In this document: piece after piece, positions 575-60,290 of the stretch
Layout: every line of letters begins with the position of its first letter
Position numbering within the stretch: position 1 is the stretch's first letter
Assembly: GCF_000524195.1 (NCBI RefSeq)
Contig: NW_020170445.1
Span: 393,969 to 457,968 of the forward strand
Source of the DNA: Echinococcus granulosus
Lineage: Eukaryota; Platyhelminthes; Cestoda; Cyclophyllidea; Taeniidae
Length of the DNA stretch: 64,000 bases
Direction of reading: 5' to 3'
Notes under the pieces: model-generated
Database searches by the model: none
Told to the model about the DNA's origin: nothing
What the model saw: the letters and a program-made list of their open reading frames with translations, nothing else
Position numbers and translations under genes: made by a program

Positions 575-745
575 GTATAAGTCGAAAACCAGGTTAGTCA
601 ATGAGCACCGTTGGGTTGAATTCTTATGGCCGATTAATTGTGTCATTTCTGTACAAAAGATGTTTAAAAGTTGTCCACGAGAAGGGTTTCAAAAGTTAAA
701 ATTAAAGACAAATGGTCCATTGATGTACGATTAGTGGATTTAAGT
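575..745 (+). pseudogene. relic of a RING-CH exon (copy R0)
   Basis: The plus strand around 600-720 aligns by eye with the middle of RING1 exon 1, including the stretch encoding 'GRLI' and the stretch encoding 'VHEK'. The cysteines that bind zinc in the intact copies are mostly replaced, and the frame before the match holds a stop. I read it as an old dead copy. No second exon was found downstream. Confidence 0.55.
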
Positions 746-1440
746 ACAGAACGGACCTAAAAAAAAACAGGCTCTTTTGCAAAGGGTAAGAAAGCTAATT
801 TAAGTACACTAATTACACCAATTATATTTAAATCCATTTCAAAATCAACCACCTATTTTGTACCTCTATTTCAATGGCATCCCCTCAAATCATCCGAGCT
901 GTATCTATTCACTCCTTTTCCCACCTATCGGTTCCGCGTTCATTCATCCATGCAATACTGGAAAATTGGTTTCACGACCCATGGATTGGCATGAATTGTG
1001 ATTCACACCACTTCCTCTTTCAATGAAATTGCTGTTCCTTCTCTTCTGCAGAGCCACCATGCTGCACCTCGCACTCTTGGTGATTCAGTGGCTTTATTTG
1101 CCTTTTGTTTTCTTAAATCGCCAGCCCTCTTGTTTCACCACCTTAGGGCTTATGTGTGATGGCACTTTATGGCCCATATTATTACCTGCTCCGTCCGAGT
1201 TTTCGTCTATTGGACTGAATACCTCTGTCACTATAAAGGAGAATAGTATCAATTTAATGGACCGTATTGCAAGCTAACGACTTACTGCAATGACTTTTCA
1301 TTTAGAAGGAGCGGAAAAGTAGCAACAAATTATTTTCTACTCGACTTCTTCTATCGTCTAGCCAGAAGCACTCTCTCTAAACCGGTAGAATCTACGCTGA
1401 AATATGCCATGGTGAATAGAAAAGAAGTAAAATCTTGGGT
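745..1440. other. no recognisable gene
   Basis: AT-rich sequence. An 84-codon open frame at 1,023-1,277 encodes a hydrophobic N-terminus, but it has no recognisable domain and no paralogue in the window, so I do not call it a gene. Bases 1-575 are equally featureless. Confidence 0.4.
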
Positions 1441-1529
1441 GCACATACCATTATCCTAATTAGGGGTCGGTTAGAATCACAGATAAGGTCACAAAGGATA
1501 CTCGGTTGAAAGAAACTCTCTTAAGTTTC

Positions 1530-1780
1530 GTAGCTCTCCACTCACCCACCTCGATATGGAAATAGGAGGCTAAAATATTAGCAAAATATAAAGCATTTGT
1601 GACTTTTGCATTAAAAACATTTCCACATGCGCACACTCTGATTGAGGAAAAATGGCTTGGATTACAGAAGAATGACATAAGCTAGTGGTTTTAGGATGGG
1701 TGGATAAATGAATACATTCAAGGATGACTGGAATCAGGAAGGACATCCAAGGAAAGGAACCTCATTACTAACATTTGTCC
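1530..1780 (-). repeat. orphan 3' flank of a type II RING-CH gene
   Basis: This stretch aligns by eye with the sequence just downstream (3') of RING2 (13,080-13,340), RING3 (27,180-27,450) and RING4 (41,030-41,290). Shared landmarks are 'cacctcgatatgg', 'ttggattacagaag' and 'ctcattac'. No exon remains next to it at higher coordinates. It marks a copy whose coding part is lost, or a flank duplicated on its own. Confidence 0.55.
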
Positions 1781-1992
1781 TCTTCCAATGTCAGTTTTCA
1801 GGACCTACAGAGAGCTATACTCGAATCTACTTCTTTTTAGGTTGCTAGTTGATGTTAATTTTTGGGAGAGGTACTAATGTATGTCGTAGTAGGAGTAAAT
1901 GCCTTTCCACTGATTTCACCTCATAAATATCGTTGGCGTTTTAATCTTGCCGTGCCTCTGTCTGTGGATAGAAGCGCTCTACTTTATATCCT

Positions 1993-2945
1993 TTTGATCT
2001 TCTGCTGGGAGAAAGGTTATCAAACAGTGAATACCTTCCTTCTGATAGTGATTTTCAGTGGTGTCTTGAGATAACGGGCCATCGACAAGAGTGTCTCTTC
2101 TTCGCATTCAGGTTAAGTAAAGCGGCTGCATGGGAGGTCACTCTAAATGGGTCCACATTTGTGCTCAAAGGGAGGAGGAGGAGAAGGAGGCACCAAAGGC
2201 CTCCAAGGGGTTTGCTGATCTAACGTTTAAGTGCAGATTTTGCAGTCAGGTGAATTCAGCAGGTTTGGTATTATCTAAAGCTGAGAGTTTTGTGCTGTTA
2301 AGCTTAACTTGTGGTGTGAAAATTAGATAACAATTCCTGCTAAATAATGTTTCACTAAATGGAACCGGTTTGAGTGAGCTGCAACCGACAATTTAGTTGA
2401 AATCATTGGTATGTGATGATTATGATTTTAACTAGAAGGTGAAGTTTTGTCTGCAGCATAAAGGTTCTACCAATTCAAAGTGCATTGTTGAAGGAGTCAA
2501 CTCAATAACTATCACCATTACTTAGGAAGCGACCCTTTATCTTCCTTCTCAGCATGGTCGTAGCTCGAGCTATCGCAATATAGACTGCTCTTAGCTGAAG
2601 TGGTACTAATGGGTAAAAGCCTACTGGACTTGTAAATGCTTGCATGATTTTAATGGAGCCTTCCACCTTCAATTCCCAGTTAATCGATCTTGCCTAACCA
2701 GATGTAGTGGAGTGAAGTGTTAAAGCCTACAAAGTAGAGAATTCGGTAAACTGCGGACGCTTACTCTTTTTGGATGTCGTGGAAAGAAGGTGCAGTAATT
2801 TTTGCCTTGTGATGATTGGCTGGTCATTTCGATTTCCAAATGTGTCACTGTATTCTTCAATGTCGCTCACGCCAACAGTGTAAATCCTGATTGTCTTGAT
2901 TTACCTGTCTGCTTAAATGGCATTAGTGGACTGCTGGAGGAATAG
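1993..2945 (+). pseudogene. CZIB (DUF866) pseudogene Z1
   Basis: Three exons match the intact CZIB gene at 54.6-55.6 kb. Exon 1 (1,993-2,070) encodes a FDLLL... start and a DFQWCL end. A 41-nt intron follows, the same length as in the intact gene, but its donor reads AT instead of GT (2,071-2,072). Exon 2 (2,112-2,262) has TAA (2,118-2,120) in place of the first cysteine of the first CXXC; the second motif, C-R-F-C, survives, and there are four extra codons in a glutamate-rich insert. Exon 3 starts at 2,702 after an AG, meets TGA at 2,713, then shifts frame, although the final part still reads as the CZIB C-terminus up to TAG at 2,943. It has at least three independent disabling changes, so it is dead. 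Confidence 0.8.
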
Positions 2946-3560
2946 ACGAATGAGCATAGTGACGACGGTCAACGCTGCTTGGATATTTTTGAAGAACAAA
3001 CTAAAACCAAGTCGGTGAGTTAGGACAAATGGGCAGCAATCATTATGATCTACTTGTGATAAATTTGCGTTTGAAGGACTGAGGACGGAACACCGAAGGT
3101 GGAAGGTTATTAAACAAAGAGTGATCTTCACTTTATGACTATGTTTTGAGAGTTATATTAGATTTTGCCATATGTTGACAACGGTTGAGTCTACACGGAA
3201 AGAAGCTGAAATTGATGGGCGAAGTTCGTGTTTTGCGTGTGCGTCTTTCATCTGACGTGCTTATCTACCCCTTAGATTAAAAGGCGATTGCGTGCATTAA
3301 ACAGATATTTAGTTAGGAATGTTACTTGGCGGAAGGCTTTGGTCGTATGGGAGTGGACTTTGTTAATTTATAGTAATTCGGGTACTCCAGGGCTTCTACA
3401 CTCCTACCATTAAGAAAGGCGGCTTTATTACTCAAGATTTACTGCTTCTTCATTTGTCACTCGCTCTCGTGCAGACAGTTGTGACTCCTCATATCTTCCA
3501 TCCACTGACGGTGTAGAGACATTCTCTACCAGGTCTTACGAGGAAGGAGGACACCAATCA
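2946..3560 (+). repeat. 3' flank shared by the CZIB copies
   Basis: The sequence after the Z1 stop recurs in the same order after the other plus-strand CZIB relics (about 11,570-12,180, 17,290-17,760 and 32,560-33,130). Landmarks are a 'gaggac-gaacaccgaaggtgg' segment and a 'ttcttccatc...ctgacggtgt' segment. It travels with the CZIB exons and has no coding signal. Confidence 0.5.
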
Positions 3561-5500
3561 ACTCGTGCAAATGTATTTCATAGCCTCTGACGTTTCAAAA
3601 TACGCGTAAAAGGTGAAATTAAGAAAATATTTTGATGCTGTGCTCTGAAATGGATGAAATATTAGAAAAGAGCAAATCGTTGACCGTTCTTATTTAGCAA
3701 TTTCATTAATACGGGGTAAAAATGAGACAAAACACATCATTGCAATCTGCGACTTTTTAAATGACTTCAGAAATTAGACCCTTATTTTGTTTAATTGAGC
3801 GGATTAGTATAAATATAGGTGCACCCGAATTCACGTCCCCCATTTGTAGTCACGGTTTTGACGCAAAATCCGTCGGTGTAGAGTTAACATTAGGCATTAA
3901 AAATGTGTCGGAATCAGCAAACAAGGTGACAGCATACAAGATTTTGATAGATTTGTATAAGCTGACCGATGTCGTCAGGAGTAATTACGTGACAAGAAAC
4001 AATCAAGTATGTTCATATTAATTTAAATTGATGTTTGATTGGCAACCTTTTGTCAAATATGGTCTCTGGTGTCTTTTTTATTAAATACTGCGGCAAAGCT
4101 TAGGCGTCCTACAATTTACTGTCGAATCCGAACATATTAATTATTCTCATGATTACAATTTAAGTGTGTATTCTTCACTGACCCATTTCAGTGGAGCTTA
4201 TCCACCACCTTTTATGAAATTAGCGCTGATTTAGAGGCAAGTTCTTTGACAGCCTTACCTGTGTAAGGCTCGCATTTTATCAGTCCAAATGCACTTATTT
4301 ATATCGATTAAAATGTTCTAAATCTTCGTATCTTTGTTTATCTTCACATTTGTCCATTTATTCCTCTTACTACCCAATCACAGATTTTATTTCGCCTTGC
4401 TTTTTAAGTCGCAGAGACCAATTTGTAGCGAATGTATTAACAAGGTCAAAGGATGAAGAATTAAAAGTACCATCTGTCTAAATGATGTAAGAAATGATCA
4501 TTTGGGCGATGCCTGTGCGGCGGATGATTGAAATATGACCGCAAGTGATGTAATCAGCAATAAAAGAGAATCACTCTATCAGAAAGTACAAACTGTATCA
4601 TACTGGGTAAAGGGCGTCAACATGCTCTAAATTATAAAAAGGAATGAGGCTGCTAAAAGTTTAGGGAGAGCCGTATGCAAGTCTACCAAGTAGTCCCTGG
4701 TTTATCCACAAACTTATACATCAAAGGATTTGTCACAGAACCACCGCCTGGCTGAGTAATCGCATTTAATTTAAAAATGCATTCCTTCTACCATTCCTAG
4801 TTTACTCATCCATTTTGAAACCAATTATCGACTAAATCATCTGAAATTTTTGCTCCCATCCATTCATCATTTATATATCTCTCGGAGGCTTTGCTCACAC
4901 AACCATTGGAATGTCATGAATTGTGGTGGACGGTACTTTTCTCTCAGCGAAAAGTTGTCTAAGCTTGCAAAACAACTGTTCATGTTCTTTGTTGTATTTA
5001 AACCACAGAGAATATTACTTGCAGCATCGGTTTGAAGGTTGAATTACTACAGACCAATCTCGCCTTAGCCACTTGGGCAGTGTCATTTTCATTTGCGCAT
5101 ACTTGAGCAATAAACAAACCTTTGAAATTGATCAGGTTAGCCAGCAGTTCTTTTAAAAAGGGAGTTAAGGAGCTAAAATATATTTTAGTACCAAGAGTAC
5201 GAAAGATCTGTGTTTCTAGCACGTAGCCTAATAACCCAGTAAGTAATTAAGAAAAGAGCAGAAATTTACGCAGCATTTTTAAAGTATTTACAAACCTCAC
5301 TTATCGCTAACAAAAGTCATTTAATCTACAAAGAATAAAATGCAAAATCTGCATAAAGCTAATCCTAAGCAGAGATCATACGACCAATTCAATAAAGTAG
5401 GTAGCAATGCTAATTAAATGCAAAATTTCTTTAATGTTCAAAAAGTTCCTTTAGTTTACTAAGGTGGAAAGGGAATGCCGTAATTTCTCGTACAAATTTA
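3561..5500. other. no recognisable gene
   Basis: AT-rich intergenic DNA with only short open frames that show no domain, no paralogue and no splice context I would trust. Confidence 0.4.
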
Positions 5501-5539
5501 GGTGCGTGTAGATAAATCTGGTAATAATATAGCCACAAA

Positions 5540-6880
5540 TTGGGCAGTCTGTGCCAAGTCAACCCTTACAGTGACCATATTATAGCGAAATTTAAATTTA
5601 CCTACGCAAAACGTCTTTTTAGTCTAATATTCTCACCCGTGGTTTGTTTAAGTGAGCAGATTGGCTTTTATTTGTCGTCCAAAGTTTCGTCGATCATTCG
5701 CATTCACAGACTTGTAGTGAGTCTTGTTTTGTTATGTATTTCAGGCAAATACATGCAGTAAAATTTGATGGACGGAAAGTTGGGCACTGAGCAAATGGAT
5801 GAATTAGAGGAGTCCGCAAAGCACAAGCATTATTGCAAAGATGTGGTGGACTGTAACGTGCGTAAATTTAATCTTAAAAATTCTTTATTTGAATGTATTG
5901 ATGTTGCTAAGTTTTACATTTACGTGCACTTTTAAGGTTTTTGCACGTTGCTTGATCTTGCTGTTATGAATTGACACCTTGCTTTTCTGTAAATTGGTTT
6001 CTGTCGAATATTGCGTTGACAAGTTATCCGCAAAATTCGAAGGACATGAGTTTACTCGGTTGTAATACTTGCCGTTTATTGCTGCTGCTTTTTAGTGTAA
6101 TTTTTGTTTGCCAGCTTTTTGTATGAAAGCTCCATTTATTCGCCATGCACCCGTCTTGGTCAAACCACATTAAATGCTCTATGTTGCCATATTACAGTGG
6201 GTAATCTGTGGCCGAGAGTTTACTGCGACTGTGAACGCTTTCTTATTTGGCTAAACATTCGTGCATACCTTAACCTTAGCACCGATGTGCGCTAATTTGG
6301 ACGCAGCATACATCAAACAGTTGAGAAGAGTTTTCTTTCACACTTTCCACTTTCTTGCTTTCAATTTTAGATTTAGGATTGCAATAATCAATATGAAGAC
6401 TTTTTACATTTGGTATCCGGCATTAGTGTTAAATGGGACAAGGTGTATTCACATAGGGTAGCCTTGTTTGCTGCTGGTTACACTATTCGCACCAATTTGC
6501 TAGGCATGTGACGGCAAGCGTTTATGCTTTTTGACGGAAGTTTCTGTTTTCAATGTTTTCTCTAATACTCTCCTACATGTAATACTGCACTTGTGGAAAT
6601 AGCCATCTCACAATTTTTTGTTGTAATTACAATAGAATTATTCTCGTTAGAAGAACATAAGTTCGGTGTAGTGGATAGATAGATAGATGAAGTTCTGGGA
6701 AGAGCAAATGCATTGAGGACCTCGAGTAGTCGATTCTGTAGGTGTGTATCAAGATGTGACATTCCGGGCGTCAAATAGCCTTCTACTATCCATCACATGT
6801 TGGGTCCTTGAAATATGGAATATTGAGTTTTGTAGATTGAGGAGTTGTGATAAATGACTAGCATAAGATTCATGCAATAG
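5540..6880 (+). repeat. duplicated 5' region of RING1
   Basis: This upstream stretch aligns in patches with 56,500-57,558 in front of RING5. Shared pieces include 'ggtttgttta-ag', 'catt-gcattca', and a 'tagatagatgaagtt' segment (6,677 and about 57,300). No reading frame is conserved between the two copies, so I take it as non-coding upstream sequence that may hold the promoter. It includes a short GATA microsatellite at about 6,674-6,688. Confidence 0.5.
6879..6880 (+). promoter_or_regulatory. candidate trans-splice acceptor of RING1
   Basis: The motif 'catgcaatag' ends here, and the RING1 open frame starts on the next base with ACG. The same motif precedes the ATG of RING5 (57,549-57,558). 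In RING1 the ATG has become ACG and no other in-frame ATG precedes the RING finger. A spliced leader ending in AUG would supply the start in frame. This is inference. Confidence 0.4.
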
Positions 6881-7988
6881 ACGACCAATGTAGCAGAGGG
6901 AGAACAAAAGCAATTAAAAGGCGCTGACGGGACAGCAGATGGCAGGATCACTACACCTCTTCATTCTTCCTTCCAACTTTGCGCTGCAAGTGATGAAACA
7001 TTGCAATCGTCTTTCTCCAACTCTTTTATTGCACTCTCTGTGTCTCCCTGCTTATTCTCGCGTGGAACTGGGAATCTTCAATGTGTTGGATCAACAACCA
7101 GCATTAACAGTCATGGCTTCCCCTTTTGTCGAATCTGCTACGATTCTAATGAATCCTCGAAAAATGTGGCGTTGGATTCTCGTGGCCGATTAATTGCGCC
7201 GTGCCTATGTGACGGAAGTTTGAAATATGTCCACGAGAAGTGTATCCAAGATTGGTTTGAAATTAGCGAGTCGAGGATGTGTGAGGTGTGTCATTTTGTG
7301 TATGAGATGCGCAAATGCATGAAACCGTTGAGAGAGGTAAGGTTGTAAAATGTGTGAAGGAACTTTAACCATATCTACCAAAAGCTGATTGATTACTTGA
7401 TAAGCCCATGCATTAGACAATTTTTTACTAAACTCTCTACGCATCTGTCTCGATTACGTTCATTTGTTCATCATTGATGTGTCCATTCCACCTTCCACCC
7501 ATCAAAGGTCTTACCACGTGATGTATGTCTTTGATTTATCTTAAGTTGTTATATTTTTATCACTTTGTCATTATTATAGCCTTTTAATTTTCTTTTTTCA
7601 AAACTTCTTATCATTTCAGTGGGAAGATCTGCACGGTATCTTCTGCACTGTATTCGCCAACTTACTAATGCAAGCCTTCGTGTCGTGGATGCTCTATGCT
7701 CTCCTTTCCCTTCTGACACCTGCCTTCACATCGGCTTCCAAGTGCAGTTTTGTGCTGTGGTTGTTGATGCTTGCAATGCCCTTTGTTGCATTTGGCGTCG
7801 GTGTTTTTGTATTCAATCAGGTGCACTCCTTCTGTGAAATGTATCGATACTGCCGTCAATTGAATTGGGTTTGTGTGGTGCGGGAACCGTCAGAAGAACG
7901 AATTGCGAAGTTGAGGATGGAACGGCGTTTATCAAGTAACCAATTCTACACCGTTCATGAGGAGGACACCTTCACTGCAATGCCTTAA
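6881..7988 (+). CDS. MARCHF8-like: MARCHF1/8-like RING-CH membrane E3 ubiquitin ligase (RING1, type I)
   Basis: Exon 1 is 6,881-7,336, ending at donor GTAAGG; exon 2 is 7,620-7,988, after 'tcatttcag'. The intron is 283 bp and phase 0. The product is about 274 residues. The C4HC3 RING-CH finger is complete: C83, C86, C108, C110, H118, C121, C134, C137. A KPLRE-W junction links it to two membrane helices (about 159-183 and 195-216), then a basic, charged tail ending DTFTAMP. Finger, spacing and helices match vertebrate MARCHF1/8, which ubiquitinate membrane proteins in endosomes and at the cell surface. The odd point is the start: ACG stands where RING5 has ATG, and there is no in-frame ATG before the finger. 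It needs a trans-spliced or upstream exon, or translation is lost. All else looks functional; substrates are unknown. Confidence 0.85.
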
Positions 7989-9125: not shown

Positions 9126-9133
9126 TTCTAGCA

Positions 9134-9215: not shown

Positions 9216-9249
9216 TAGCATCTCCTCTGAGAAAGCACTTACAAGCATC

Positions 9250-11200
9250 GTCTTGATCTACAGGTATTGCATTTTAAGGGGTGAGACGTAGTAAGATGGG
9301 TGTTGTGGGTGGTAAAATTGATAATTTGGATGAAATGTGTCTGTCAGGCAGCGTAGTCACCGGATGACTTTGATCATCCTATGTGTGTATTTTTTGTAGT
9401 TTGTTTGAAATGGACAGCATTCACAGGAAGCTCGTTGCTCACTCTATGGAGAATTGACGACCATGATATGGACGTGGTATACACGGCTGAGTGTCGTAGC
9501 CAAAGTCGAAATGAGGCCGACAGCAGGCGATTCACATCACCACTTTAAATGGAGGAAGTGTCTAAGCGGTGTTATCTGGGAGTGTGGATGCAGTAACTAC
9601 AAGGCTAATGACTGCAAGTCAACGCACGATCACTGTTGATGCCCTGAAGAAGTAAGGGGGGGGGGGCCTAATGAATTTGCCACTAGTACCGGTTTTACAC
9701 TATCTGTAATACCAAATTACTGGAGTAATTTATTTGTTGATCTTACTTAGAAGTCGTACACTTGCATACATAAGTACTCACTTATTAGCAGAAAAACATT
9801 CTCCACTTAACTGGCCCAAACTCATCAGCAGCCTTCTATATTTGGCGGAAAAGAGTAGCAACGCGTGCAGTGGCAACCACTTTGTGTTCAACTCGCCATA
9901 CCAGGGATTTGCATGGATTAATAAAATTCGCGTGACCCCACGCTGATGAGTCACACGCCCTGTGTGTGTCATTGCTTCGGAGTCATTGTTCTGTGCGTCA
10001 CTGGGATTGAGGGTGGGGAAGGTCACCGCAGCATGTGTCTAGTTTTTCCAAGTTTAAGCGGAAGACTTAAATTTCCTCCTTTTAAAGTTGCGTGTTTGCT
10101 AGAAAGGTTACGTTTTAGCTATGAAATTGAATCCCAAATATATCAAGTGAATTATTTAGATTACAGATGGGGAAGAGGGTAGGAAGCTTTGGTTTATGGT
10201 GTTTGAGTGCTGCTGCATGGACTTCGCAACAACTCAAAACATTGCGCTCATGGCCTGTTAAGAGACGCGCAAGTCGTAGCTTTGAACGATGACGCCTTTG
10301 CAGTGGATGAGGTAACTTTTGATTGTGCAAGGGAAGTGTTCGTTAGAGGGCTGTGGAGTAATTTATCATCAGTGTATCTTAAATTGCTTCATTTTGATCG
10401 CTGTAAAAAAAGTATTTAGTGAATGCAACATAATGGTTTTTACTAGTTACAGTTAAACAAATTTAGGAAGAAATATTAGATTCTCCTCAAGTCTCACATC
10501 ACAAGGCTGCTTAATTACCCCTAATTCCACTACCAACAGAATTGTATATTGAAGTAACTAATTCGAATGTTGCATTCTCCACCGACCCATAGATGAAACA
10601 GGAACCGATTGCGCACCTGTTCTAAGGAGGAAGAAACTTAATTCGCAGTAGCAGAGAGAGAAAGGGATAGAGATAAGGCAAAGGAGAAGCCGTAGCAGGC
10701 GACAATGTCGCAGTAAGGAGTGCAGTAGGCAAAGAACCACTGAAATCTCTATTTGTATTTTACATCAAGAAGATCTGTACACAATTACTTTTGATGATTT
10801 TCACGCGATACTTCCCCACGTATAATAATGCATTCTCTGAATAATAATTCACCTCTCGATTTTTCCTCCGTCTGTTTAGGGACATACAAGCTCAGTGCAG
10901 TGGAAGGATGGATGGTTGACGTTCTACGTAGAGCAGTCGGTCCTGTCGGTGTGCATCTTACTGGTTTGAGGTCGGAACACTTTGAATGGGAATGCGTTAA
11001 GTCATTGAAACGTGGAATGATCAGTTCGCCGGATTGCTTAATTGTGGTAACTGATTGATATCCTATTCCATGAAGTTGATTTTTAACATACGACATAGAC
11101 AACTGAAGCAGAGGAGAAAGAACGAAGACAATTACGAGGCTGCAATGGAAGTGCGAATGGTGGAATCATCACCGTCCTTCACTCTTCCCATAAATATTCC
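9250..11200. other. no recognisable gene; one poly-G run
   Basis: Only short open frames without domains or paralogues. An uninterrupted run of 11 G lies at 9,656-9,666, unusual for this AT-leaning sequence. Low-level similarity to other flanks is possible but I could not place it. Confidence 0.35.
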
Positions 11201-11209
11201 ACTTTTGCA

Positions 11210-13340: not shown

Positions 13341-13344
13341 AATC

Positions 13345-16480: not shown

Positions 16481-16494
16481 CATCGATGGGACTG

Positions 16495-19640: not shown

Positions 19641-19789
19641 TCAGTGCTTACTCTTCATTCCTTACAATAAAAATTGTCAAAAGTAGAATGCTGTGGTCAT
19701 TTTGATTTGCCTTAATTCAACGACTTAATTTAAGTTTACACTTAAACAGTCGACACCCAGCATTGCCCATCGTCATCGCATCCCGTCAA

Positions 19790-24050: not shown

Positions 24051-24055
24051 TATTT

Positions 24056-35375: not shown

Positions 35376-35379
35376 TCGT

Positions 35380-41330: not shown

Positions 41331-41385
41331 AGACGTGTTCTACTTGTTGCCATTTTTACTAACAATGCAAAAGGATTACAAACCA

Positions 41386-44720: not shown

Positions 44721-44774
44721 GCATTCGATTGATAAACACAGACGATTAGCAGTGGTCCAATATCAATGAATGCA

Positions 44775-44945
44775 AATGAGGGAGTAAGTGTTTTGTGCCA
44801 TTTTAGTCATGCGATGGGCAGACACGCGATAGGGAATGAGGAGGTGAGGCTGTGGAAAGTAGGGAAGTGTCTTATGCGTGTGTACCAACAGTATGTTGAT
44901 TCATTAATGAATTTATGCATCAAACAATTTCTCACAAAACCTACT
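44775..44945 (+). pseudogene. RING-CH relic (end of exon 1 and start of intron)
   Basis: The plus strand matches the last part of RING2 exon 1 and the first 70 or so bases of its intron, including the donor region 'gaggtgaggctgtggaaagta' trimmed to its core and 'cttatgcgtgtgta'. Only V-L-C-H-F of the finger survives. It is in the opposite orientation to RING2. No other exon lies nearby. Confidence 0.7.
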
Positions 44946-47900: not shown

Positions 47901-48615
47901 GTCCTCCTTAAATTCGTAATCAGCCTAAGTACTGTGAATGAACACGCAGTAGAGGCATTACCAGGAATTCATTTCACTAGGTGGAATTGCAGCCTGCGGA
48001 AAATGTCAGAGCTGCTGAATCCACGCACCTACTCTACTATCCTCACTACTGTTCAGTCTTGTCACAACATCAGCAATTGACTGGATTTCATTCAATTCAT
48101 TCATTCAATAGCAGTACAATTTCATTCGACATCAGTGGTTTAGTTTTTAGCGAAAATTCGTCCCTCATGGCTTTTAATATGAGCATGGAGGATCCCAGCC
48201 TTTACCAACAAGAGATGGTAAGAGGTTTGACGACAGAAGAATGCTTGTTCTAGTCGTTTATACTTAAGGACGGTAAAATCACGCAAATAGGATGAAAAAG
48301 TAGGCAACACTACTCTATGAGTGGAGAGATTGCAAAAAATGAATCCATTGTGGCATAAGCTACTTTCCTTAACTAACGTGTGCATTTCTTTGTCAAGAAA
48401 AAAAAAGTGACCTTAGTACTGTAAGTTCGAAGATGTACCACTGCACACGAATTGTAATTGACCAAATCAAGTAATGCCTCAGGGAGGGGAAGTAATAAAT
48501 TCGTGAGGAATAAAGGTGTCAACGCCATGGCTCACATCTAAAGAGCTTACGAAACAGGCTCCAACAGTATTTACAGGTTGATCGCTACCAATCAAACGGC
48601 TGCTATAATCACCTA
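44946..48615. other. no recognisable gene; repeat fragments
   Basis: Fragments of the 38.8 kb repeat lie at 46,960-47,200 and of the 'ttatgcatcac-agtact' repeat near 45,985 and 47,260. A CZIB-like flank piece may lie near 47,560-47,700. Short open frames (for example 47,853-48,080) have no support. Confidence 0.35.
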
Positions 48616-48617
48616 GA

Positions 48618-48990
48618 GAGATCACAAAATGTGGATAGCAGCAGCATTGGCAAAGGCATTTATGGCCATCTCAAAGGCCAATTCCGTGATCTTGTTAACT
48701 GTAATGGCCAAAACGACATCTCAACATTGTGATAATCCTTGACAGACTGCCTCCACGTAGGCCACTGCACACACAGTCCCCGCAACTGGGATAGAACGGT
48801 CCCAAGTGATGTTCGCTAATATGGAGGCAGTGGATAACTGAAGTTGGTTCCTCAAATCTGTCTGCCAACTTGTACGTACAATCAAGAAGTGACCTAGTGC
48901 TAACCGGAAATGCGTCACCTCAGTCGAGTGAGGAGTAATGGACTTTGTGGGGCAAGCAATGTGATAACTGACCACCAAACGCCACAAGAT
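48618..48990 (-). pseudogene. block C: long minus-strand open frame with one internal stop
   Basis: From 48,987 to about 48,620 the minus strand is open except for one TGA (48,720-48,718). The second part predicts a helix-like segment, A-F-E-M-A-I-N-A-F-A-N-A-A-A, that resembles A-I-K-M-V-M-N-A-F-M-N-A-A-A in block A. The first part contains a small-residue-rich hydrophobic stretch (I-P-V-A-G-T-V-C-A-V-A-Y). It may be an exon of a membrane protein of the same unknown family as A and B. I do not recognise it. Confidence 0.35.
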
Positions 48991-49785: not shown

Positions 49786-49789
49786 GTTA

Positions 49790-50640
49790 CCCACTGGTAA
49801 ACAGTAACAGAACTGACTGCTCTAAGTGCGCAAAGCATTCACTCACCGTAGAACTTCAGTTCACTACACTGAGCGTCACGTGCAGCTAAATACTGCAAAT
49901 CTCTTGCCACAACAATGGAACTAACGAATTTCAACCCAACGTTGGATACACTTCTCACGGTCGTACTTTACACTTTACACAGGCTCGACACAGTTAATCG
50001 TTCACATGGGTCCAGCTACATACCATTTGTGGAATCATTTGATTCGTGACACATGCGAAAAAAGGAAAAGCCATAACTGTAAATGGTGATCAGAAATACA
50101 AAACTAAAAATTTGCAGGGCCATGCGACATTAGGTGGGGGGAGAGAGGAAGTGGTGAAGGTGTAGGAGGAAAATGGCTACAACGTTTGTTCGCTTGCAGC
50201 CGAATGACGAATAGAGAAACGAGTGAAGGTGGGGGAAACCATCACCTGCAGTTCTGTCGTAGCCGCATGATTACTTCCGATTTTCCACTTCCGCGGCGGC
50301 CGTCTATTGCGAGCATCGCGGTATATTATGAAAATCATTGTTAACTTAACCAACTGTAAAACCTGCCATCTCCAAGATTCATCATTCCATATAACAGTGA
50401 TCCAACGCACTCCTACTCGGTACGATCCAATCTAGGGAAAAAAATAAACCAAATGCCACCTAAAATGTTACACCTTGATAAACATTGACAGGATCAACGA
50501 CTCAAAGTCCCCAAGGCATTTGCTCTTTGTAGAACTTTATCTATCTACCAAACTGAACCTTGCATTCTCCCAAAGGCCGCAAACAGGTTGTCATAACAAT
50601 GGGAAAGTGAGCTAGCTATTCCAAGAACGTATTATTCTAT
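49790..50640 (-). pseudogene. RING-CH pseudogene (type II) with its 5' flank
   Basis: On the minus strand 50,075-49,925 aligns with the RING finger of RING2, including F-F-x2-C-H-E-S-N-D read across two frames and a 'gtatccaacgttgg' segment. Stops and frameshifts destroy it and several ligand cysteines are gone. Leader sequence resembling RING2 lies at 50,130-50,230 and the conserved 5' flank at 50,230-50,620. A second piece of 5' flank lies at 49,790-49,880 on the other side. No membrane exon was found. Confidence 0.75.
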
Positions 50641-52385: not shown

Positions 52386-52389
52386 TCCC

Positions 52390-53220
52390 CATGTATAGAT
52401 TGTCTTTGAAATTCTGTTTCCTGTTTTTCTGCATCGTTATGACAATGCCGTTGAGTTTTTGTCGTCACTGTGATGGTAGAAATAACTGCGTTCCCATTGC
52501 CTTACCCTCTCTTGAAGTTGGAAAAGAAAGGAAAGACAGCAACGGTGTGCCCTCTACTAAATGCCCCTCGTGCTTCCAGTCACTCCTGTAACATTGTTTT
52601 TGCACCTATTTTAGAACCGATAATTCATGTAACCTTTCTGTAAGCCATTTCATTTCTTCTTTTTCAGACTGTGTACTCTGGAAACCTTTTCCAATGCTAC
52701 AGTCAAAAACTGTAAAGTATTTTACAAAAATGCTTTGGCCCTTCAGTCTCACATCAGTATGCAAGGTTTGAGGGAGTTTCTTCCTACAGAGTATCTTTTA
52801 TAACTTTACCTGCTATTCAACTGCCCCCGCCTATTTAACAGCGCTCCATCTCTCCGTCTGATCAGTACCCTTCTAGCCGAATGGATACACTCATTCATCC
52901 TGGATGCAAGTGACGTAACTGAATGCAATCAGCGCTCGTGAGAGGTGGCTATTGGATGAGGTTATGTGTGGACTATGTTAGTCTTTTCCACTGAAATTGA
53001 CTACTGCAGGGTGGAAACCGCCTACACCGCCGTTTGCCATAGCCAACAGCTAGTTGAAGTGGGTAGTAAATGTTTGGCATTGCTATCTAAAGTGGAAGAA
53101 GATGGACGCCTAATGGAATTATGCATCACGAGTACTTGTCATCTAGCAGTTAAAAGTAACACACACACACCCACCATATGTCAACAAGATAGTTAACTGT
53201 GTACTCACTGAGCGTATCCA
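52390..53220 (+). pseudogene. 3' remnant of a type I RING-CH gene
   Basis: The interval aligns with the RING5 3' region (58,740-59,720): 'cgtgcttccagtcactcctg', 'tgagggagtttcttcctacagagt' in core, and 'ctccatctc'. At 52,411-52,460 a faint match to the last coding bases of exon 2 may remain. The 66-codon open frame here (52,391-52,591) does not encode the RING tail. It is what is left of a lost gene copy, or a flank duplicated alone. Confidence 0.55.
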
Positions 53221-54605
53221 TAGACGAATTTGGAGTCAAATATCCCCTTAAGTTCCTTGTCACTTGGCACCTTTGAATTTGATTCGTCCACGAAGCATTC
53301 CATGCAGATCACAGGAACCGCACTTCACAATGATAATGCGTGAATCCCCACTTGAAAGCCTGTTCAACTGCTAACTTTTACACTTTACCTCCAGTCTTGC
53401 ATTCATGTCAAAGATTCTGTCCCTCCCCCCCTCCCTCCTCCTCCCGATATTTACTAAACTGTAGCCAACATTATTCAAAGGTTGAGGAAGGACACCATAG
53501 GGGAACATGCGTTAGTTCTTAGTGTGCCAAATTACTAAATTAATCTTTCAATTCCGAATTGCAGAATGCGTAGAATGCGCGCCGCATAGTCTCATGGGGT
53601 CTGCAAATACCCTGCCGTTGAGTTAGCCACACACCAACTTGCACAACTTCGCGAACGGCCTTTGACAACATCCTCCAAGGTAAAGCGACAATACAATCAC
53701 ATTCAGTGCCCTCAAGGCATTGACGCACGCAGAGCGTGGAACTCCGTGAGTAAGAGATCCGGCAAGTCCCATCGGTCAAAGCGAGTCGAAAACGAAGCGA
53801 TGTCAATTGTGCGTAAAACGTGGAAGGCTGCCAGCCAGACGAGGGCAGCTATCTATTTATGTACGCATATGCGCGTGTGACTTCTAGGTTGGACGAAATA
53901 CTAAATCACACGGCTAATTTAGCCCACGAATAAAGCGGAATAAGTACTCGCGGTGCATAATTCTATCAAGCTATAATACTAACCTTCCACATACTTCCAG
54001 CTACTTATCTGTGGTGCGAACGACAGAATTCATTTGCTGATACCAGACAAATACCTGGAGAAGGAGAATTGGTAGTATCAGCTGTCAATCGGATCCTCCC
54101 CGTGACCTCAAATCGTACGTGTTGACATGCTTAGTGGACGGAAGGTGAGGATTTTCAACCGCCCAAACGATAGTAAGCAGAAGGATTGGAATACCCGATC
54201 TCGTAGACATTACAAATTTGGAGTTGCATAGAACCAAAAGCGTCCACCACTTGTCATTTGCAAGTAAGTATTGCTTCAACACTTACAACTTCCAATTTTT
54301 CTGAGAGGTAGTGAAAGACATCAGAAGGAAGACCCAACTTTTGGGCATAAACCATGACATTCGACTTCATCATCTGGCTGGGTAGACGTAACCGCTGTCA
54401 GAATGACAAGATCGAATTCCACGCTTCGACTGCAGCCGCAAACAGAAGGACACTCGTTGTTGAATACTGTCCTACCCTCAGTGTTCAAAAACCGCACTTT
54501 TAAAACAAATCTTTTACAATAATACTGATGTCTTCAATTGACTTTGCCTTAACACACCGACTTGATTTCAGTTTGCACTTCAAGTATCTCTACGCAGCAT
54601 TCACC
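53221..54605. other. no recognisable gene
   Basis: A pyrimidine-rich run (53,420-53,450) and short open frames only. An AC-repeat (53,157-53,171) lies just before it. Confidence 0.35.
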
Positions 54606-54612
54606 GTCTTCA

Positions 54613-55610
54613 TCATAGTCCGTCCATTCCTGTAATTTCAGTGAAGCTGATTAAGAACAACACTTCAGCTATGTCATTTAAATGGGCAGACAAATCTAGG
54701 GAACTCTGACTCACTCCGTCGGTTAGATCAACATCCGAGAAGACAGTGGCACAATCGGAATTGGAAACGGCCCGCCAGCCATCACGAAGCGAGAATTGCT
54801 GCGGCTCCATTCCGCGACATTCAAAGCGAACAATTGGTCGCAGTTTCTCCGAGTCCTCCTCTTTGTAGGATTTTACACTCCCCTCCACTACATCTGAATG
54901 CGTCAAATCAAATAATTCAACATTGGATGTGTAATGCTCCATCAAAGTACCCAAACATTTTAGGTTCAGTGGGTTTTGTCCAATAAAAACACTTCAACTG
55001 AACACTGTCTTTACTACAACAGCATGAGCAACAAACGTATTTGTAGGAAAGACAGGGTATCTTTGCTCCAGCAATGGCGGTATCAGGTGAGCTGACTCCT
55101 CCATCAATGCACTTTAAAACGAAAGGATCTCGACCCTACAGACAGAGCATCAACTTGCAGTTAAACTGAAATTCAATGCATAGCAATAAGAGGCAAATAC
55201 CTCTGAAATGCGCTAAACTACAGGCGGCCAAATGTTCTAACATACTGTGGCATATTTAACGTCTTCAAATGGAAAGTAAGCCCCAGAAATCACACATCAA
55301 AATAAGCTCAGCAGTGCTGAACTCGGGGTCCCAGATGACAACAAACCTGCCGAATTCTCACGACCACAGAATCGGCACTTCAGCTTCAGGTTGGTAAATC
55401 CCCTGGAGCCCTTAATTGCCTCATGCTTTTGAGCACAAATGAAGACCCATTTATCATGCACCTCCATGCAGTTGCTGCATTTTACCTAGATTCAGAGAAG
55501 AAGTACTCGTGATGATGCGTAGTTACCTTAAGGCACCATTGAAAATCATCGCCAGAAGGAGACAGTTCACTGATGTTTGTTAACCTAGCTCTCAGCAGGA
55601 GATCAAACAA
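54613..55610 (-). CDS. CZIB: CZIB, CXXC-motif zinc-binding protein (DUF866/UPF0587)
   Basis: Three minus-strand exons: 55,610-55,527, 55,485-55,347 and 54,893-54,613. Introns are 41 nt (phase 0, GTAACT...CTAG) and 453 nt (phase 1, GTTTGT...TTCAG). The product is 167 residues against about 160 in the human protein. Exon 2 carries both zinc-binding motifs, C-S-N-C and C-R-F-C, and the D-K-W between them. Exon 3 carries F-E-C-R-G-M-E-P and V-F-S-D-V-D-L, both family signatures. CZIB is a small soluble zinc protein of poorly known role; the human protein is reported to interact with the copper chaperone CCS. Exon 1 begins with TTG right after an acceptor, one residue short of where the family has its methionine, so the AUG must come from a spliced leader or a tiny upstream exon. 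It is the only intact copy in the window. The last 35 residues diverge from the family. Confidence 0.92.
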
Positions 55611-55612
55611 CT
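55611..55612 (-). promoter_or_regulatory. candidate trans-splice acceptor of CZIB
   Basis: A pyrimidine-rich 'ttttttctcacttcgtag' ends here on the minus strand. The next base opens the CZIB frame with TTG. A leader ending in AUG would give Met-Leu-Phe-Asp, matching the family N-terminus in length. The alternative is a short upstream coding exon that I could not see. Confidence 0.45.
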
Positions 55613-56495
55613 ACGAAGTGAGAAAAAAAATGCGCCAATGCCAGACATGAGGAAATAAATGTACGAGGTTAAGTAATGAGTGGAGCTACTAACTCACCGG
55701 CATTGTAATAGGGATGTAACCTAAAAGGAAAAAGATTTTCCAATGATACTCCAGTATGTACGAATAATTCAAGGATCGCGGATATGGCGGCCAGAGCCCA
55801 TGGGTAATATTAAGGAAATAAGCATTTCTGGTTTGCCTCTTACTCTATCCAGATATTATCGATGTGCAAATGTCAACTCCCCACCACCAACTTCGTAGCC
55901 CACGATCAGCATGCACACGGAGTCGCTGAAGGGCAGATTGCCATTGATTAATCTAGTACATGCTCTAGTGTATGGTGAAACAAAGATGAGTCGAGCAGAA
56001 TGCCTTGGAGAAATGAGGTGGTTCTGGAATTTTGTGGATGGGGAGGCTAAAATACGAGATTAGGTGCAAGCGTACAAACTATAAGTAGGTTCTCGAAACA
56101 GTCTAAATATTTCATTATAATTTCGGGAATTAGATTCAATAAGAATCTACTGGTATCCTTAAATCACAAGTAATCACACAATTGTTTAGCATAGATTCAC
56201 TTATTTAAAAAAAAGATAAAAAGTCGGCGACATTGTAAAGCCAAATCGGTGACAAATATTTTTTTCGAAATTAGGTAGTTGCTTTCGCCAAAGTAATACA
56301 AAATTATCAAAATGCACTGCAATCTAGTGTTATTTTGAGGTGGAAACAGGTAGAGCCTGCAAACTTCTCGTGATTCTTCTGCTAACTTATGCCCAAAGCT
56401 GGTAACAAATCTTTTGATCGGCTTCCTAGTCAATTTTCGTAATGCTCAATTTGGCGCGAACTCTTTTAATCTATTTTGCATGAATGCAAGGGTTT
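55613..56495. other. no recognisable gene
   Basis: Lysine-rich and hydrophobic short open frames only. This interval should hold the CZIB promoter, as the gene reads leftward from 55,610, but no motif stands out. Confidence 0.35.
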
Positions 56496-56499
56496 TCAC

Positions 56500-57558
56500 C
56501 TAAACAGATTTATTAATTTTCCTCCGTGGTTTGTTTAAGCGTGTAGAAAGGTATTTATTTTTTGGCCAAATTTTCGTCGGTCCTTTGCATTCATAACTTT
56601 GTTGCTTTTTGTTTTGTGATGAGCTTCAGGTAAATATCTATCGTAAAATTGAATGGATAGAAAGCTACACTGCAACGGTTCGGATGGGTCAGAGGAGAAT
56701 GGGAAATGTGGGTGTGAACGTAAGGAGGTGGTGCACCATCACGTATGTTGATTTGAATTTCGTGTTAATATTTCATATGCTGCTATTGGCAAAGTCTCCT
56801 TTTCTCCAAAGCATTTGGCATCTAAATACGTTACTTCACCTTGCTATTATGAACAGGTACTTTGCATTTTCATAGGTTGATATCTTCTGAATCATTAATT
56901 GATTAATTCTCCCTAAAATTTGAAGTCCATAGAGCCCCTCGGTGGTAATGTTTGCGATAAACTCCACTTCTTATCACTTTAAGTTGATTTGTTAGACCTC
57001 ATTTTTTTGTAAATATTGAAGTTTGTTATCCGGTCTCACAAGTGATTAGAGAATACTTATGCGCATGAGGGAGCTCTGTTAATCGGTGCATACGCGCCAC
57101 TCACATGAATTCGCTTGGTGTATTGGCCAATATTTATTCATTCAATAATGCGTTTTTTGATGGAAGGCTTTGTTCGCAATACTTTAAGTGTTTTGACATT
57201 TCCTTACACAGAATGATACATTCTTGGGAAAGCCACCGCATAATTTTCTTGCTATGACAGCGAATTTGGTCTATTTATCAGCAATAGTGCTAGGTGTAGT
57301 AGATAGGTAGATGAAGTTTTACTGAGTACAAATGCTTTAGTGGCTTGGGGTAGTCAGTTCTACTAGTGTTTATTATGGCGAAGTATTTCAGGCAGCAAAT
57401 GATTTTTACTTCACCAGAAATTGGAAATTTTTGGGTGGGCATGTGTTGAATCATTTAAATGTTGGAATGTGACTTTTTTAGATGACCGAGGTTCGGTAAT
57501 TGTTTTACTATTCCATTTCGTGCATTTTTATGAAGTTGACTTGCGATTCATGCAATAG
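56500..57558 (+). repeat. duplicated 5' region of RING5
   Basis: Partner of 5,540-6,880 upstream of RING1. It ends with 'cgattcatgcaatag', the same motif as in front of RING1, which sits directly before the RING5 ATG and is the candidate trans-splice acceptor. Confidence 0.55.
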
Positions 57559-58751
57559 ATGGCCGAAGTAGTAGAGGAGGAACCAAGGCAATCACGAGAA
57601 TGGATCGGAACTTCAAGTGGCCGATTCACCACCCTCCTTCGTTCCTCTCTTAGACTTTCCGCTCCAGCCAAAAAAAAGTTGAAATCAACTTCCCCCAACG
57701 CCCCTACCACTGCTTCTGTGTCTCCCCGTCTAGCATCGCATGGAACAGGAAGTCCTCAAAAAATTGAAACAACAGCCAGCATTTCCAATTGTGATTTCCC
57801 CTTTTGTCGAATATGCCACGAATCTACAAATGACGTGGCGTTGGATTCGTGTGGACGACTAATTGCACCGTGTCTGTGTGATGGGAGTTTGAAATATGTC
57901 CATGAAAAGTGTGTTCAACGTTGGATTGAAATCAGTCAGTTGAGGAGGTGTGAACTGTGCCATTTTGAATATGAGACGCGCAGTTACACGAAACCGATAA
58001 GAGAGGTGAGGCTGTGAAAAGTAAGGCTGAATCTTGAACATGTCTATTAAGTTCATTGATTCCTCGATGAAACTATCTATCAAGCAACTTCTCACAGTAC
58101 CATCTACTCGATATCTAAGCTAGTTGAGTTTGTTTCGAATATACTTCGCTCATAAATCTTTCCATTTGCTTAGAAGTAAGTCGCCCATTGCTGCATTTTA
58201 AATTTTTGCCCACCCACCTATCCGTACACTACACATCCATTCATCACTGATCCACCTATCAATTCAGCTTGCTATTCTATCTCCTTCTTATTTATCAAAT
58301 GGTGGAAAACTTCTTGAGCAGGGACGGTAAATAGTCACCTATTTTTTTTTCAACTTTTCAGTGGAAATTTTTTTTAATGGATTGTCGGCACCTGCGTAAA
58401 CTCTTCTGTTTTATCACAATTTACCTACTAATCCAAGCCTGTGTATCATGGGCGCTCTACGCTCTCATTTCCAATCTGTCATCCACCGGTATATCGAGTT
58501 CTGAACGCAATTGGCAGTTCTGGCTGAAGGTCTTCGTCGTCTTTGTTGGTATGTTCAGCGTCGGCATTTTTGCGTACGTTCAGACGCGCTACTGCTGTGA
58601 CATATGTCAACGTTGGCGTCAGTTGAATTGTGTCTGTGTTGTGCGAGAACCGCCCAAAGAACGAATTGCGAAGATGCGGAGAGAACAGCGTTTACCAAGC
58701 AACCAATTCTGCATAGTTCATGAAATGGACACCTTCACCGCAATGCCTTAA
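57559..58751 (+). CDS. MARCHF8-like: MARCHF1/8-like RING-CH membrane E3 ubiquitin ligase (RING5, type I, most intact copy)
   Basis: Exon 1 is 57,559-58,005, ending at donor GTGAGG; exon 2 is 58,362-58,751, after 'caacttttcag'. The intron is 356 bp and phase 0. The product is 278 residues. The RING-CH finger is complete: C83, C86, C105, C107, H115, C118, C131, C134, with W122 in place. K-P-I-R-E-W links it to helix 1 (about 163-185, C-V-S-W-A-L-Y-A-L-I) and helix 2 (about 203-222), as in MARCHF1/8, followed by N-C-V-C-V-V-R-E-P and a charged tail with SNQF and DTFTAMP shared with RING1. The role is to ubiquitinate membrane proteins; substrates are unknown. The ATG directly follows an in-frame TAG that is also a plausible trans-splice acceptor, so this start is firm. 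It is the best reference copy of the family here. Confidence 0.94.
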
Positions 58752-59720
58752 GAGTGCGAGGCAAGGGAAGATGCGGATACAGCATCTTTTGCCGGATGTC
58801 TTTCGTGCTTCCAGTCATTCCTGAATAATTTTTTGCCCACCCTTAACAGAACCACTGGTGCATGCCACCCCTCTACAATGCAAATCATTTTCTCCTTCAG
58901 AGTGTGTAAGAATGAAACTTTTTTATTTCAAAAGTCAAATTACAAAACATTCTGTAAATACGCCTTGGTCCTTCAATTCCACACCATTGCGTCAGGTTAG
59001 ATGGGTGCAGAGTTTGAGGGAATTTCTTCCTGCAGAGTGTCCTTTATGATTTGAACTTTGTATTCAAATGCCAACATCCATCCCCACCTATTCAAAATTT
59101 CTCCATCTCCCTGTTCAATCAGTGTCCGTCTATCCATACCATATCTGAACTGTAAGGTAACCCTTGCTCTATATATCTATCTGTCCAATGCTTATGGGTT
59201 CATCCATCCTGAATGCCAGCAGTGTATCTGATTACAAGCGACACTCGCGGAAAGTGGCGATTGAACGGAGTTTTGAGGTGAAGTGAGTCGTTTGTCCTGT
59301 TGAGAATTGACGAATGGTACGCGGAAATGGTCTATATGATTGACTGCCACAGTCAACGGCTAATTAAGGTGGGTAGAAAGCGATTGACAATGTCTCTTGA
59401 CATGGAAGAAAATGCTTAAGTGACATCATCGAGGGCAGCGGATGCAATCACCACAGGGCTAGCAGCTGCATATAGCATCTCAATTGGCAGTGTTTTTGCA
59501 GCTCTATGGGTGTAATATAATGGGGAGGGAAGGAAAGGAATGAGCTGATGCAAATTAGCGTACGGTCCTGGTTGATGGATTGAAGGGGCGCTTGGAGATC
59601 TAGTAGAATTATGCATCTCAAGTGCTTGTTCCGCTCTCTATTTGGGGGGAGATTACCGGTGCCGTTTAGCAATTAACTTCAGTTAGAAGTCACACACGCA
59701 CACACACCTGTAATTGTTGT
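58752..59720 (+). repeat. 3' region of RING5, shared with 7,989-8,420 and 52,480-53,220
   Basis: It begins with the probable 3' UTR and runs into a dispersed repeat ('tagaattatgcatctcaagtgcttgttcc', read in parts) and an AC microsatellite at 59,693-59,708. The match with 52,480-53,220 covers most of its length. No coding signal. Confidence 0.55.
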
Positions 59721-59984
59721 CACCTAAATAGCTAATTTTACGTACTCCAAATATCCATCAATGATTTTTGTGTGAAACATGGCCATATGCGGTATGGATA
59801 GACGGATACAGATTGGACTAGTAGATGGGGACATTTTTTACTAAGCGAAGGCAATTGAGTGCACAGCTAAAATAATTTGTGGGTGGGTGGAAACGCTCTG
59901 AAAAATCACGATTCTCTAATCGTACGCTTTGATGCTATGGAAAATCAAACAGAGGAAAAAAACATTGTTGTAAATCTGTCACCT

Positions 59985-60290
59985 GCATTTCCGTTGTAGC
60001 CATGTGATTGTTTCCTTCCTCTTCTTCATTCGTCATTCAATTGTCACATCTCAGTCATTTACAAAACCTATCATTCCACATTCCAGTGACGCAACGCATC
60101 TCTACTCAAAAGGCGTCAATCTTGGATGAATAGGAAGCTGTTTATGGCTTGAAATGTTGCATTTTGCTAAGCATTGCCAGGATTGACGGCTCCAAATCCG
60201 CAAAGCATTTACTCATCCCGGAAATTCAGCTACCCACCACACTAAGCTTTATATGCTACTATTCACCGCAAATCGGTTGTCATAACAACT
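59985..60290 (-). repeat. orphan 5' flank of a type II RING-CH gene
   Basis: It aligns over about 300 bases with 50,240-50,610 and with the RING2 flank: 'cacctgca-ttc-gt-gtagcc', 'acctatcattccacattccagtgac', 'gcaaagcattt' and 'ggttgtcataacaa'. No RING exon is present at lower coordinates, where the gene should begin. Confidence 0.6.

Follow-up and report, generated by a model that had tools for sequence, protein, structure and literature searches.

The final 64 kb of a 458-kb contig (NW_020170445.1) in the 103.6-Mb genome of the tapeworm Echinococcus granulosus, here called the window, runs up to the contig end without a single N base and holds a cluster of genes related to the membrane ubiquitin ligases MARCHF1 and MARCHF8 (MARCH1/8) of other animals. 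A first-pass annotation of the sequence had proposed five readable copies and at least four relics on both strands. Five RINGv exons are indeed found, with expectation values (E) between 1e-14 and 3.8e-10, two on the plus strand (R1 and R5) and three on the minus strand (R2, R3 and R4), but only R1, R2, R3 and R5 look intact, and R4 is a pseudogene. All eight zinc ligands of the C4HC3 RING-CH finger are kept in each of the four intact copies and not in R4, where CRIS stands for CRIC. The membrane exon of each intact copy has two hydropathy peaks directly C-terminal to the finger, as does that of the published protein P0017. As the annotation had noted, the intron between finger and membrane exon lies at one position and in one phase: the GTRAG donor falls in the same alignment column, in phase 0, in all five copies including R4, and an AG acceptor follows in all four copies with a readable membrane exon. 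Protein identity among the copies is 43–61% for the RING exons, and 18–43% for the membrane exons of the intact copies.

Full genes were reconstructed by mapping published protein models (P-numbers) back onto the window, and these contain 5′ coding exons that the first-pass annotation had missed. R1 and R5, both on the plus strand, consist of three coding exons each: a short 5′ exon, the RING exon and the membrane exon. Specifically, the 5′ exon of R1 (5768..5857) has 30 codons, ends at a GT donor and is 100% identical to residues 1–30 of P0007; its RING exon (6881..7336; RINGv E 1e-14) carries all eight ligands and is 100% identical to residues 31–182; and its membrane exon (7620..7988; stop codon at 7986–7988) encodes two hydrophobic helices at 99.2% identity to residues 182–304. 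R1 thus matches this E. granulosus protein at 99–100% across three exons. We considered whether R1 had lost its start codon, exon 2 opening with ACG, and dismissed this when the upstream exon was found. The corresponding exons of R5 lie at 56653..56742 (93.5% identical to P0001 residues 1–31), 57559..58005 (all ligands, RINGv E 9.9e-14, 95% to P0001) and 58362..58751 (two hydrophobic helices, 96% to P0001).

The three remaining copies are read on the minus strand. R3 has four coding exons by model P0024 and three by model P0027: a first exon of the MSQRRDQEV type at 30746..30847, 100% identical to residues 1–34 of the E. granulosus protein P0024; a second exon at 29204..29320, which is in P0024 and not in P0027 and whose end was set from the donor; a RING exon at 28014..28322 with all ligands (RINGv E 1.7e-14; P0024), whose start was set from the acceptor and the models; and a membrane exon at 27456..27740 with two hydrophobic helices, 100% identical to P0024 residues 177–270. 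The RING exon of R2 (13934..14215; RINGv E 2e-14) runs from an ATG (MPRGT) to a donor, carries all ligands and matches P0028 and, at 94.9%, P0029; its membrane exon (13345..13626) has an acceptor and two hydrophobic helices and is 87% identical to P0029. Further upstream a 5′ exon remnant (14961..15038) corresponds to P0029 residues 1–26, and by eye it does not keep the donor of R1 and R5. The N-terminal part of the R2 RING exon shows single-base gaps relative to R5, and the published model P0028 begins at MPRGT. R4 consists of an R3-like first-exon remnant (43828..43929; 67.6% to P0024 residues 1–34, E 3e-8), a RING exon (41909..42331; RINGv E 3.8e-10) that has lost one ligand and the conserved Trp, Gln replacing the Trp that follows the sixth ligand, and a membrane-exon relic (41223..41607; nucleotide profile E 1.3e-21) that in a three-frame reading has stops in every frame. 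Because of this damage to both the finger and the membrane exon, R4 is considered dead.

A CAG acceptor-like site lies shortly 5′ of the first-exon ATG in R1 (about 5745), R5 (about 56629), R3 (about 30856) and R4 (about 43938), a pattern that either a non-coding exon or a spliced leader would produce. An approximate query for the cestode spliced leader gave no match at three or fewer mismatches. A Pfam scan of two membrane exons returned sub-threshold matches only.

To place the genes we compared them with MARCH1/8 and with MARCH2/3. Within this comparison, the best matches did not fall outside MARCHF1/8: the nearest named non-cestode MARCH1/8 protein matches R5 at E 7e-33, against E 9e-17 for the nearest named MARCH2/3, and the membrane half of R5 is 28–33% identical to MARCH1/8 but only 12–16% to MARCH2/3. 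The mean identity of the membrane half to 15 animal MARCH8 sequences is 31% for R5, a weak 21% for R1 and 13–14% for R2 and R3. The annotated likeness of finger and both helices to MARCHF1/8 therefore holds for R5, weakly for R1, and not for R2 and R3, whose membrane halves are no closer to MARCH8 than to MARCH2/3 and whose descent is assigned through their fingers and orthology only. Some of the 15 sequences are named MARCH8 at their source, others (for example P0019, P0020, P0044 and P0048) are labelled so by similarity, and two are near-identical Trichinella entries. A genome-wide RINGv search, in which 15 candidates were scored, found three further genes outside the cluster, all of other MARCH types and one at each of three loci: L001 (C231:304680), L006 (C245:174669) and L008 (C260:5237). 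The gene on C231 groups with MARCH2/3 (support 100); by sequence features L006 looks like the MARCH5 type and L008 like the MARCH6 type. The MARCH2/3 gene resembles the cluster in having a RING-CH finger followed by hydrophobic helices, but its finger is 38–54% and its membrane half only 7–16% identical to R1, R2, R3 and R5, and it is the single match on a separate contig.

A protein search for relatives returned 37 proteins. The matches are clusters at 90% identity, so that counts per species are not final, but one protein each was found for the six named non-taeniid cyclophyllideans encountered (Hymenolepis diminuta, H. weldensis, H. microstoma, Rodentolepis nana, Anoplocephala perfoliata and Mesocestoides corti), against several each for Taenia and Echinococcus. 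Searching again with the M. corti protein as query brought up 31 proteins but added no named cestode. The tree was built from 44 sequences and 162 columns, with ten of the 37 proteins omitted as fragments, near-duplicates or extra Trichinella entries (P0008, P0011, P0021–P0023, P0026, P0027, P0029, P0035 and P0037). In this tree, which follows up a check proposed with the first-pass annotation, all four intact genes pair with Taenia orthologues: R1 with three Taenia proteins (98), R2 with one of T. asiatica (100), R3 with proteins of T. solium and T. asiatica and one further protein (81), and R5 likewise with Taenia proteins. A sixth type groups one E. multilocularis protein with two Taenia proteins (100). 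Since Taenia orthologues exist, R1, R2, R3 and the sixth type predate the split between Taenia and Echinococcus, and by these pairings the expansion is older than E. granulosus and common to Taenia. The sixth type comprises P0014, P0016 and P0017, from E. multilocularis, T. asiatica and T. crassiceps; it was not found in the E. granulosus genome, where the best match is R5 at 52%, reflecting either a loss or an assembly gap. The kinship of R4 with T. solium P0031 is weak, with a support of 77 in the finger tree and no pairing in the full tree. One T. asiatica model, P0012, fuses an R3-like and then an R2-like protein, in the order found on the minus strand here. From equal lengths of the longest contig (12,340,804 bases), the records of R1 and R3 (P0007 and P0024) would lie together on one contig, and so would four T. 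solium relatives, which share a length of 163,096 bases.

In the daughter copies the two halves of the protein have changed to different extents. We compared the finger and the membrane exon separately between Echinococcus and Taenia orthologues. For R5 both are equally well kept: 41/47 finger and 81/96 membrane positions are identical to T. solium, and 39/47 and 80/96 to T. crassiceps (finger 83–87%, membrane 83–84%). For R1–R3 the finger is kept at 75–83% but the membrane exon at only 38–48%, with 36/48 against 31/82 and 31/38 against 38/89 for the two R1 pairs, 40/48 against 33/81 for the R2 pair, and 40/48 against 43/90 and 38/48 against 39/90 for the two R3 pairs. The sixth type is intermediate (36/46 against 55/96 and 35/46 against 51/96). 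Fisher tests of the contrast give p values from 2.8e-6 to 7.5e-5 for the five R1–R3 pairs, 0.010 and 0.016 for the two sixth-type pairs, and 0.8 and 1 for the two R5 pairs. A further R1 pair with P0018 (finger 75% over 48 columns, membrane exon 13% over 31, at a distance of 1.13) was excluded because that model runs into an intron. Tree distances across the same split are 0.15–0.19 for R5, 0.48–0.53 for the sixth type and 0.76–0.90 for R1, R2 and R3, and in a tree of the membrane exon R2, R3 and the sixth type group at 93. R5 is the conserved parent gene.

The cluster shares with animal MARCHF1 and MARCHF8 the RING-CH finger, two close membrane helices and its best named non-cestode matches. 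Among the 105 pairs that can be formed from the 15 animal sequences taken as MARCH8, however, identity averages 77% in the membrane half and 74% in the finger, the membrane half being conserved at least as well as the finger in 74 of the 105, whereas the tapeworm genes have only 13–31% membrane-half identity to them. According to the first-pass annotation most animals would keep one or few genes of this subfamily, where the tapeworm has a cluster. Because MARCH1/8 membrane sequences are so strongly conserved in the animals compared, paralogues with a kept finger and a changed two-helix hairpin amount to a natural experiment on target choice.

The annotation had also proposed measuring the ratio of nonsynonymous to synonymous substitution rates (dN/dS). 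With the Nei–Gojobori method (NG86), dN/dS for the finger is 0.10–0.27 over the six pairs of intact genes, and for the membrane exon 0.48–0.56 in five pairs and 0.20 for R5–R3, where dS is saturated. The Yang–Nielsen method (YN00) gave finger values of 0.39–0.68 in those four intact pairs for which it ran; its membrane-exon values were 0.94 (R5–R1) and 0.57 (R1–R3). As YN00 failed often and gave such values for the finger, this contrast is weaker than that from the orthologues. In a neutral simulation of each gene on its own branch, with indels ignored, the frame remained stop-free in 2, 9 and 2 of 1000 runs for R1, R2 and R3 respectively, which argues for function of the frames and not for positive selection. 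The cluster is real and, judged by its open frames, selectively kept.

Around the intact genes lie the remains of many others. The four intact copies were made into a nucleotide profile, with which the window was scanned. Besides R4 and its membrane exon, the scan finds seven RING-exon relics (E 1.5e-60 to 2.5e-7) and four relics of membrane exons (E 5.8e-8 to 1.6e-4), more than the annotation had listed. The reversed window gave no profile match, and the best E values in 20 dinucleotide shuffles were 0.17 for the RING profile and 0.019 for the membrane profile. Three weaker rows were not counted (RING E 9.8e-4, at an R3 5′ exon; RING E 0.1; membrane E 0.0055). In two cases, 607–1258 and 44749–45403, a RING-exon relic is followed by a membrane-exon relic on the plus strand. 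The first combines a RING exon (607..695; E 2.8e-8, blastn to R1 E 2.8e-9) with a membrane exon (1037..1258; E 5.8e-8), the second an R2-like RING exon (44749..44888; E 5.5e-17, 84% over 158 nucleotides) with a membrane exon (45282..45403; E 1.5e-4). The other RING-exon relics lie at 4496..4688 (plus; E 1.8e-9, blastn E 2.6e-4), 11055..11204 (plus; E 1.7e-14, blastn E 1.5e-6), 49920..50323 (minus; E 1.5e-60, with a stop codon), 59933..60036 (minus; an N-terminal part, E 4.8e-9, blastn E 2e-4) and, as a possible case, 46339..46523 (minus; E 2.5e-7); the other membrane-exon relics are at 22774..22858 (minus; E 2.1e-6) and 52518..52588 (plus; E 1.6e-4). Pairwise blastn against single copies backs the RING relics in six cases, with best E values from 7e-21 to 3e-4, and gave no support for the seventh, at 46.3–46.5 kb, or for the two membrane relics tried, 1037–1258 and 45282–45403; these three and the two remaining membrane relics are found by the profile alone. 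That the relic at 49.9–50.3 kb might be the lost sixth type is unsupported, its best blastn match being R1. In the 40 kb to the left of the window, of which about 4 kb were masked, no MARCH profile match was found. Intact and dead copies of different ages thus stand at one locus, with a sixth type that differs between species, as in a birth-and-death family.

The genes next to the cluster were copied with it. Comparison of the window with itself shows old duplications at 64–91% identity, for example between 26.6–31.2 kb (R3) and 40.5–44.7 kb (R4). Head to head with R5 lies a gene for a CZIB/C1orf123-like CXXC zinc-binding protein (54549..55705, minus, ends approximate; PF05907 E 4.1e-12), and the only two PF05907 matches in the genome are both inside it. 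Eight rows of CZIB nucleotide relics were found, seven in the window and one just to its left (L009:9709–9997). Relics with stops, seen by tblastn as well, lie at 1981..3170 (plus, E 4.4e-115) and 16362..17460 (plus, E 5.7e-76), the latter head to head with R2; another is at 19627..20356 (minus, E 1.3e-62), and further rows are at 11209–11464, 11506–11812, 32487–32796 and 35170–35629. The open ALG10 gene (PF04922, E 3e-94) lies at L010:4685–6034, about 14 kb left of the window, and has left minus-strand relics in the window at 18587..19174 (E 2.6e-51), 37641..38130 (two frames, E 1.3e-44) and 48543..48806 (E 3.2e-19). Its downstream flank was copied too, at 47.5–48.5 kb and 33.4–34.1 kb among others. 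Because ALG10 and CZIB copies sit in the cluster, segments were copied and not single genes. None of these copies was recovered as a whole gene, and among the three kinds of gene MARCH alone is present in more than one intact copy. The decayed copies of ALG10 and CZIB provide a built-in control for which duplicates selection retained. Repeats at 54.5 kb and 18.7 kb, considered as mobile elements, are the CZIB and ALG10 copies. At 24041–24544 lies a retroelement-like remnant, whose match to RNase H (PF17917, E 0.0023) is weak and fails the cut-off. Between the cluster and ALG10 there is also an aquaporin-like (MIP) gene (L009:5902–6744), for which the window showed no relic at E 1e-3.

R5 also differs from R1, R2 and R3 in its 3′ untranslated region (3′UTR). 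The heptamer GTCTTTC (58798..58804, plus), complementary to the seed of miR-71 (consensus from PMC10458147), lies 47–53 nucleotides past the R5 stop codon and is absent from the first 300 nucleotides 3′ of the stop in R1, R2 and R3; by eye, one-base variants stand at the matching place in R1 and R3. A published list of 16 potential miR-71 targets that rose in E. multilocularis cells on knock-down of this microRNA includes EmuJ_000154000 (‘MARCH8’); a 7mer-m8 site is described at 33–54 of its 3′UTR, with conservation across T. solium, E. canadensis and E. granulosus (PMC6957206). The R5 heptamer, which is not followed by A, is a 7mer-m8 site ending at 54, where the E. multilocularis site was reported. 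We infer that EmuJ_000154000 is the orthologue of R5 and is expressed, and that the daughter genes have left miR-71 control.

The explanation that we consider probable is segment duplication of a MARCH1/8-type locus, with R5 retaining the ancestral job and daughters that kept the finger while changing the hairpin. The ancestral tapeworm locus would have held a single MARCH1/8-type gene, now R5, probably near the CZIB-like gene and ALG10. In the lineage of the ancestor of Taenia and Echinococcus this neighbourhood would have been duplicated piecewise and repeatedly, which gave copies of MARCH, on both strands, and of the genes beside it. Decay would then have taken the copied neighbours and many of the MARCH copies, at least four MARCH genes being retained in E. 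granulosus. From what is known of the family, each retained gene is predicted to encode a membrane E3 ubiquitin ligase whose N-terminal cytosolic RING-CH finger would recruit an E2 enzyme and whose hairpin would recognise the membrane part of substrates, leading to their endocytosis and degradation. Substrate specificity of MARCH proteins has been located in or near the membrane domains (PMC8319528), which makes a conserved finger beside an altered hairpin consistent with a change of clients, most likely to other worm membrane proteins. Such retargeting through the membrane half is plausible and is the reading that we favour. The proposal of a birth-and-death expansion of MARCH1/8-derived genes in a parasitic worm is supported, and is extended by the finding that Taenia shares it.

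Several observations weigh against this explanation. The tree alone cannot place the cestode genes with MARCH8 over MARCH2/3, because the third group roots the tree. A structure model of the R5 type has the finger and helices at 187–219 and 225–267, but its mean predicted local distance difference test (pLDDT) score is only 65.6, with blocks at 65–92 in the folded part, and Foldseek returned no match for it at E ≤ 0.001; the top rows were the human MARCH8 finger (2d8s, E 1.9e-3) and then Doa10 (E 3.1e-3), with nothing else below E 1. The dN/dS contrast hinges on NG86, YN00 having failed for many pairs, and in the paralogue comparisons no value exceeds 1 for finger or membrane exon. Several Taenia models are imperfect (P0015 is without part of the finger), so that single conservation values are approximate, and expression is indicated only for the putative R5 orthologue. 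The 5′ coding part of R2 seems to be lost, so that this gene has no complete 5′ end. Finally, fast change of the membrane exon with hydrophobicity kept is also what would be expected from loss of a specific function.

This last point leads to the possibility that R1–R3 are slowly dying copies in which the membrane exon drifts unused while the finger is merely constrained by its zinc fold. In favour of this are the membrane-exon dN/dS values of about 0.5 by NG86, and 0.94 for R5–R1 by YN00, the many sister copies, R4 among them, that are already dead, and the apparent loss of the R2 5′ part. However, the frames have stayed open since before the Taenia–Echinococcus split, with orthologues predicted in both genera, and the fingers of R1, R2 and R3 keep all ligands while the co-duplicated ALG10 and CZIB were never recovered whole; we regard slow death as unlikely. 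Alternatively, positive selection may act on the hairpins, driven by substrates that themselves change fast, for instance surface proteins of the parasite in contact with the host. The finger/membrane contrast is strong in R1–R3, weaker in the sixth type and absent in R5, as this would predict, and related viral RING-CH proteins are described as targeting host surface proteins (PMC8319528), but the paralogues give no dN/dS above 1 and their synonymous sites are near saturation, which makes this alternative doubtful.

Similarity of the fingers could also reflect homogenisation by gene conversion of the finger exon and not constraint. Consistent with exon exchange, the R2 finger exon is nearer to R1 and R5 while its membrane exon groups with R3, and separate finger and membrane trees disagree on the sixth type. 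Approximately unbiased (AU) tests nevertheless do not reject one shared history (p 0.318 and 0.102), so that the exon mosaic hinted at by the separate comparisons is unsupported, and orthologue pairs across the two genera keep the finger too; conversion therefore seems quite improbable as the explanation. An assembly artefact, which the first-pass annotation had named as one thing that would refute it, can be set aside as extremely improbable. The window does end at a contig end, but it contains no N, R1, R2 and R3 differ from R5 at approximately 30, 40 and 47% of aligned coding nucleotides, the same proteins occur in other records, and copies with RING and membrane exons as dissimilar as those given above are not collapsed haplotypes.

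Retargeting by duplication, as we favour it here, has partial parallels elsewhere. Viral RING-CH ligases (ORF K3, PDB 1vyx; MIR2) likewise keep the finger with target recognition unlike that of cellular MARCH proteins, and the K3 finger matches R1 at E 5e-6, but they are viral and act on host proteins, whereas the cluster consists of cellular genes, for which a sign of action on the host was neither sought nor found. Duplication in the same lineage is known for the taeniid expansions of gp50, HSP70 and E2 ubiquitin-conjugating enzymes, where the sources name E2 enzymes and not MARCH E3 ligases (PMC5036155, PMC5327563); the word ‘march’ is absent from the main text of PMC5327563, and the gene treated in PMC10850878 is, as that source presents it, a different one. 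No title describing a MARCH cluster in tapeworms was among the literature matches listed, although an earlier description is possible, subscription journals being mostly uncovered.

As a tentative extension, the cluster may pair one catalytic finger with at least two divergent hairpins, that of R5 and R1 and that of R2, R3 and the sixth type, each copy possibly removing its own set of surface proteins. The worm might then have made its own counterpart to the retargeted RING-CH ligases of viruses, and might use it to remodel the tegument surface when changing stage or host. The clade that shares the expansion includes the agents of hydatid disease and cysticercosis, for which turnover of the surface matters for survival in the host.

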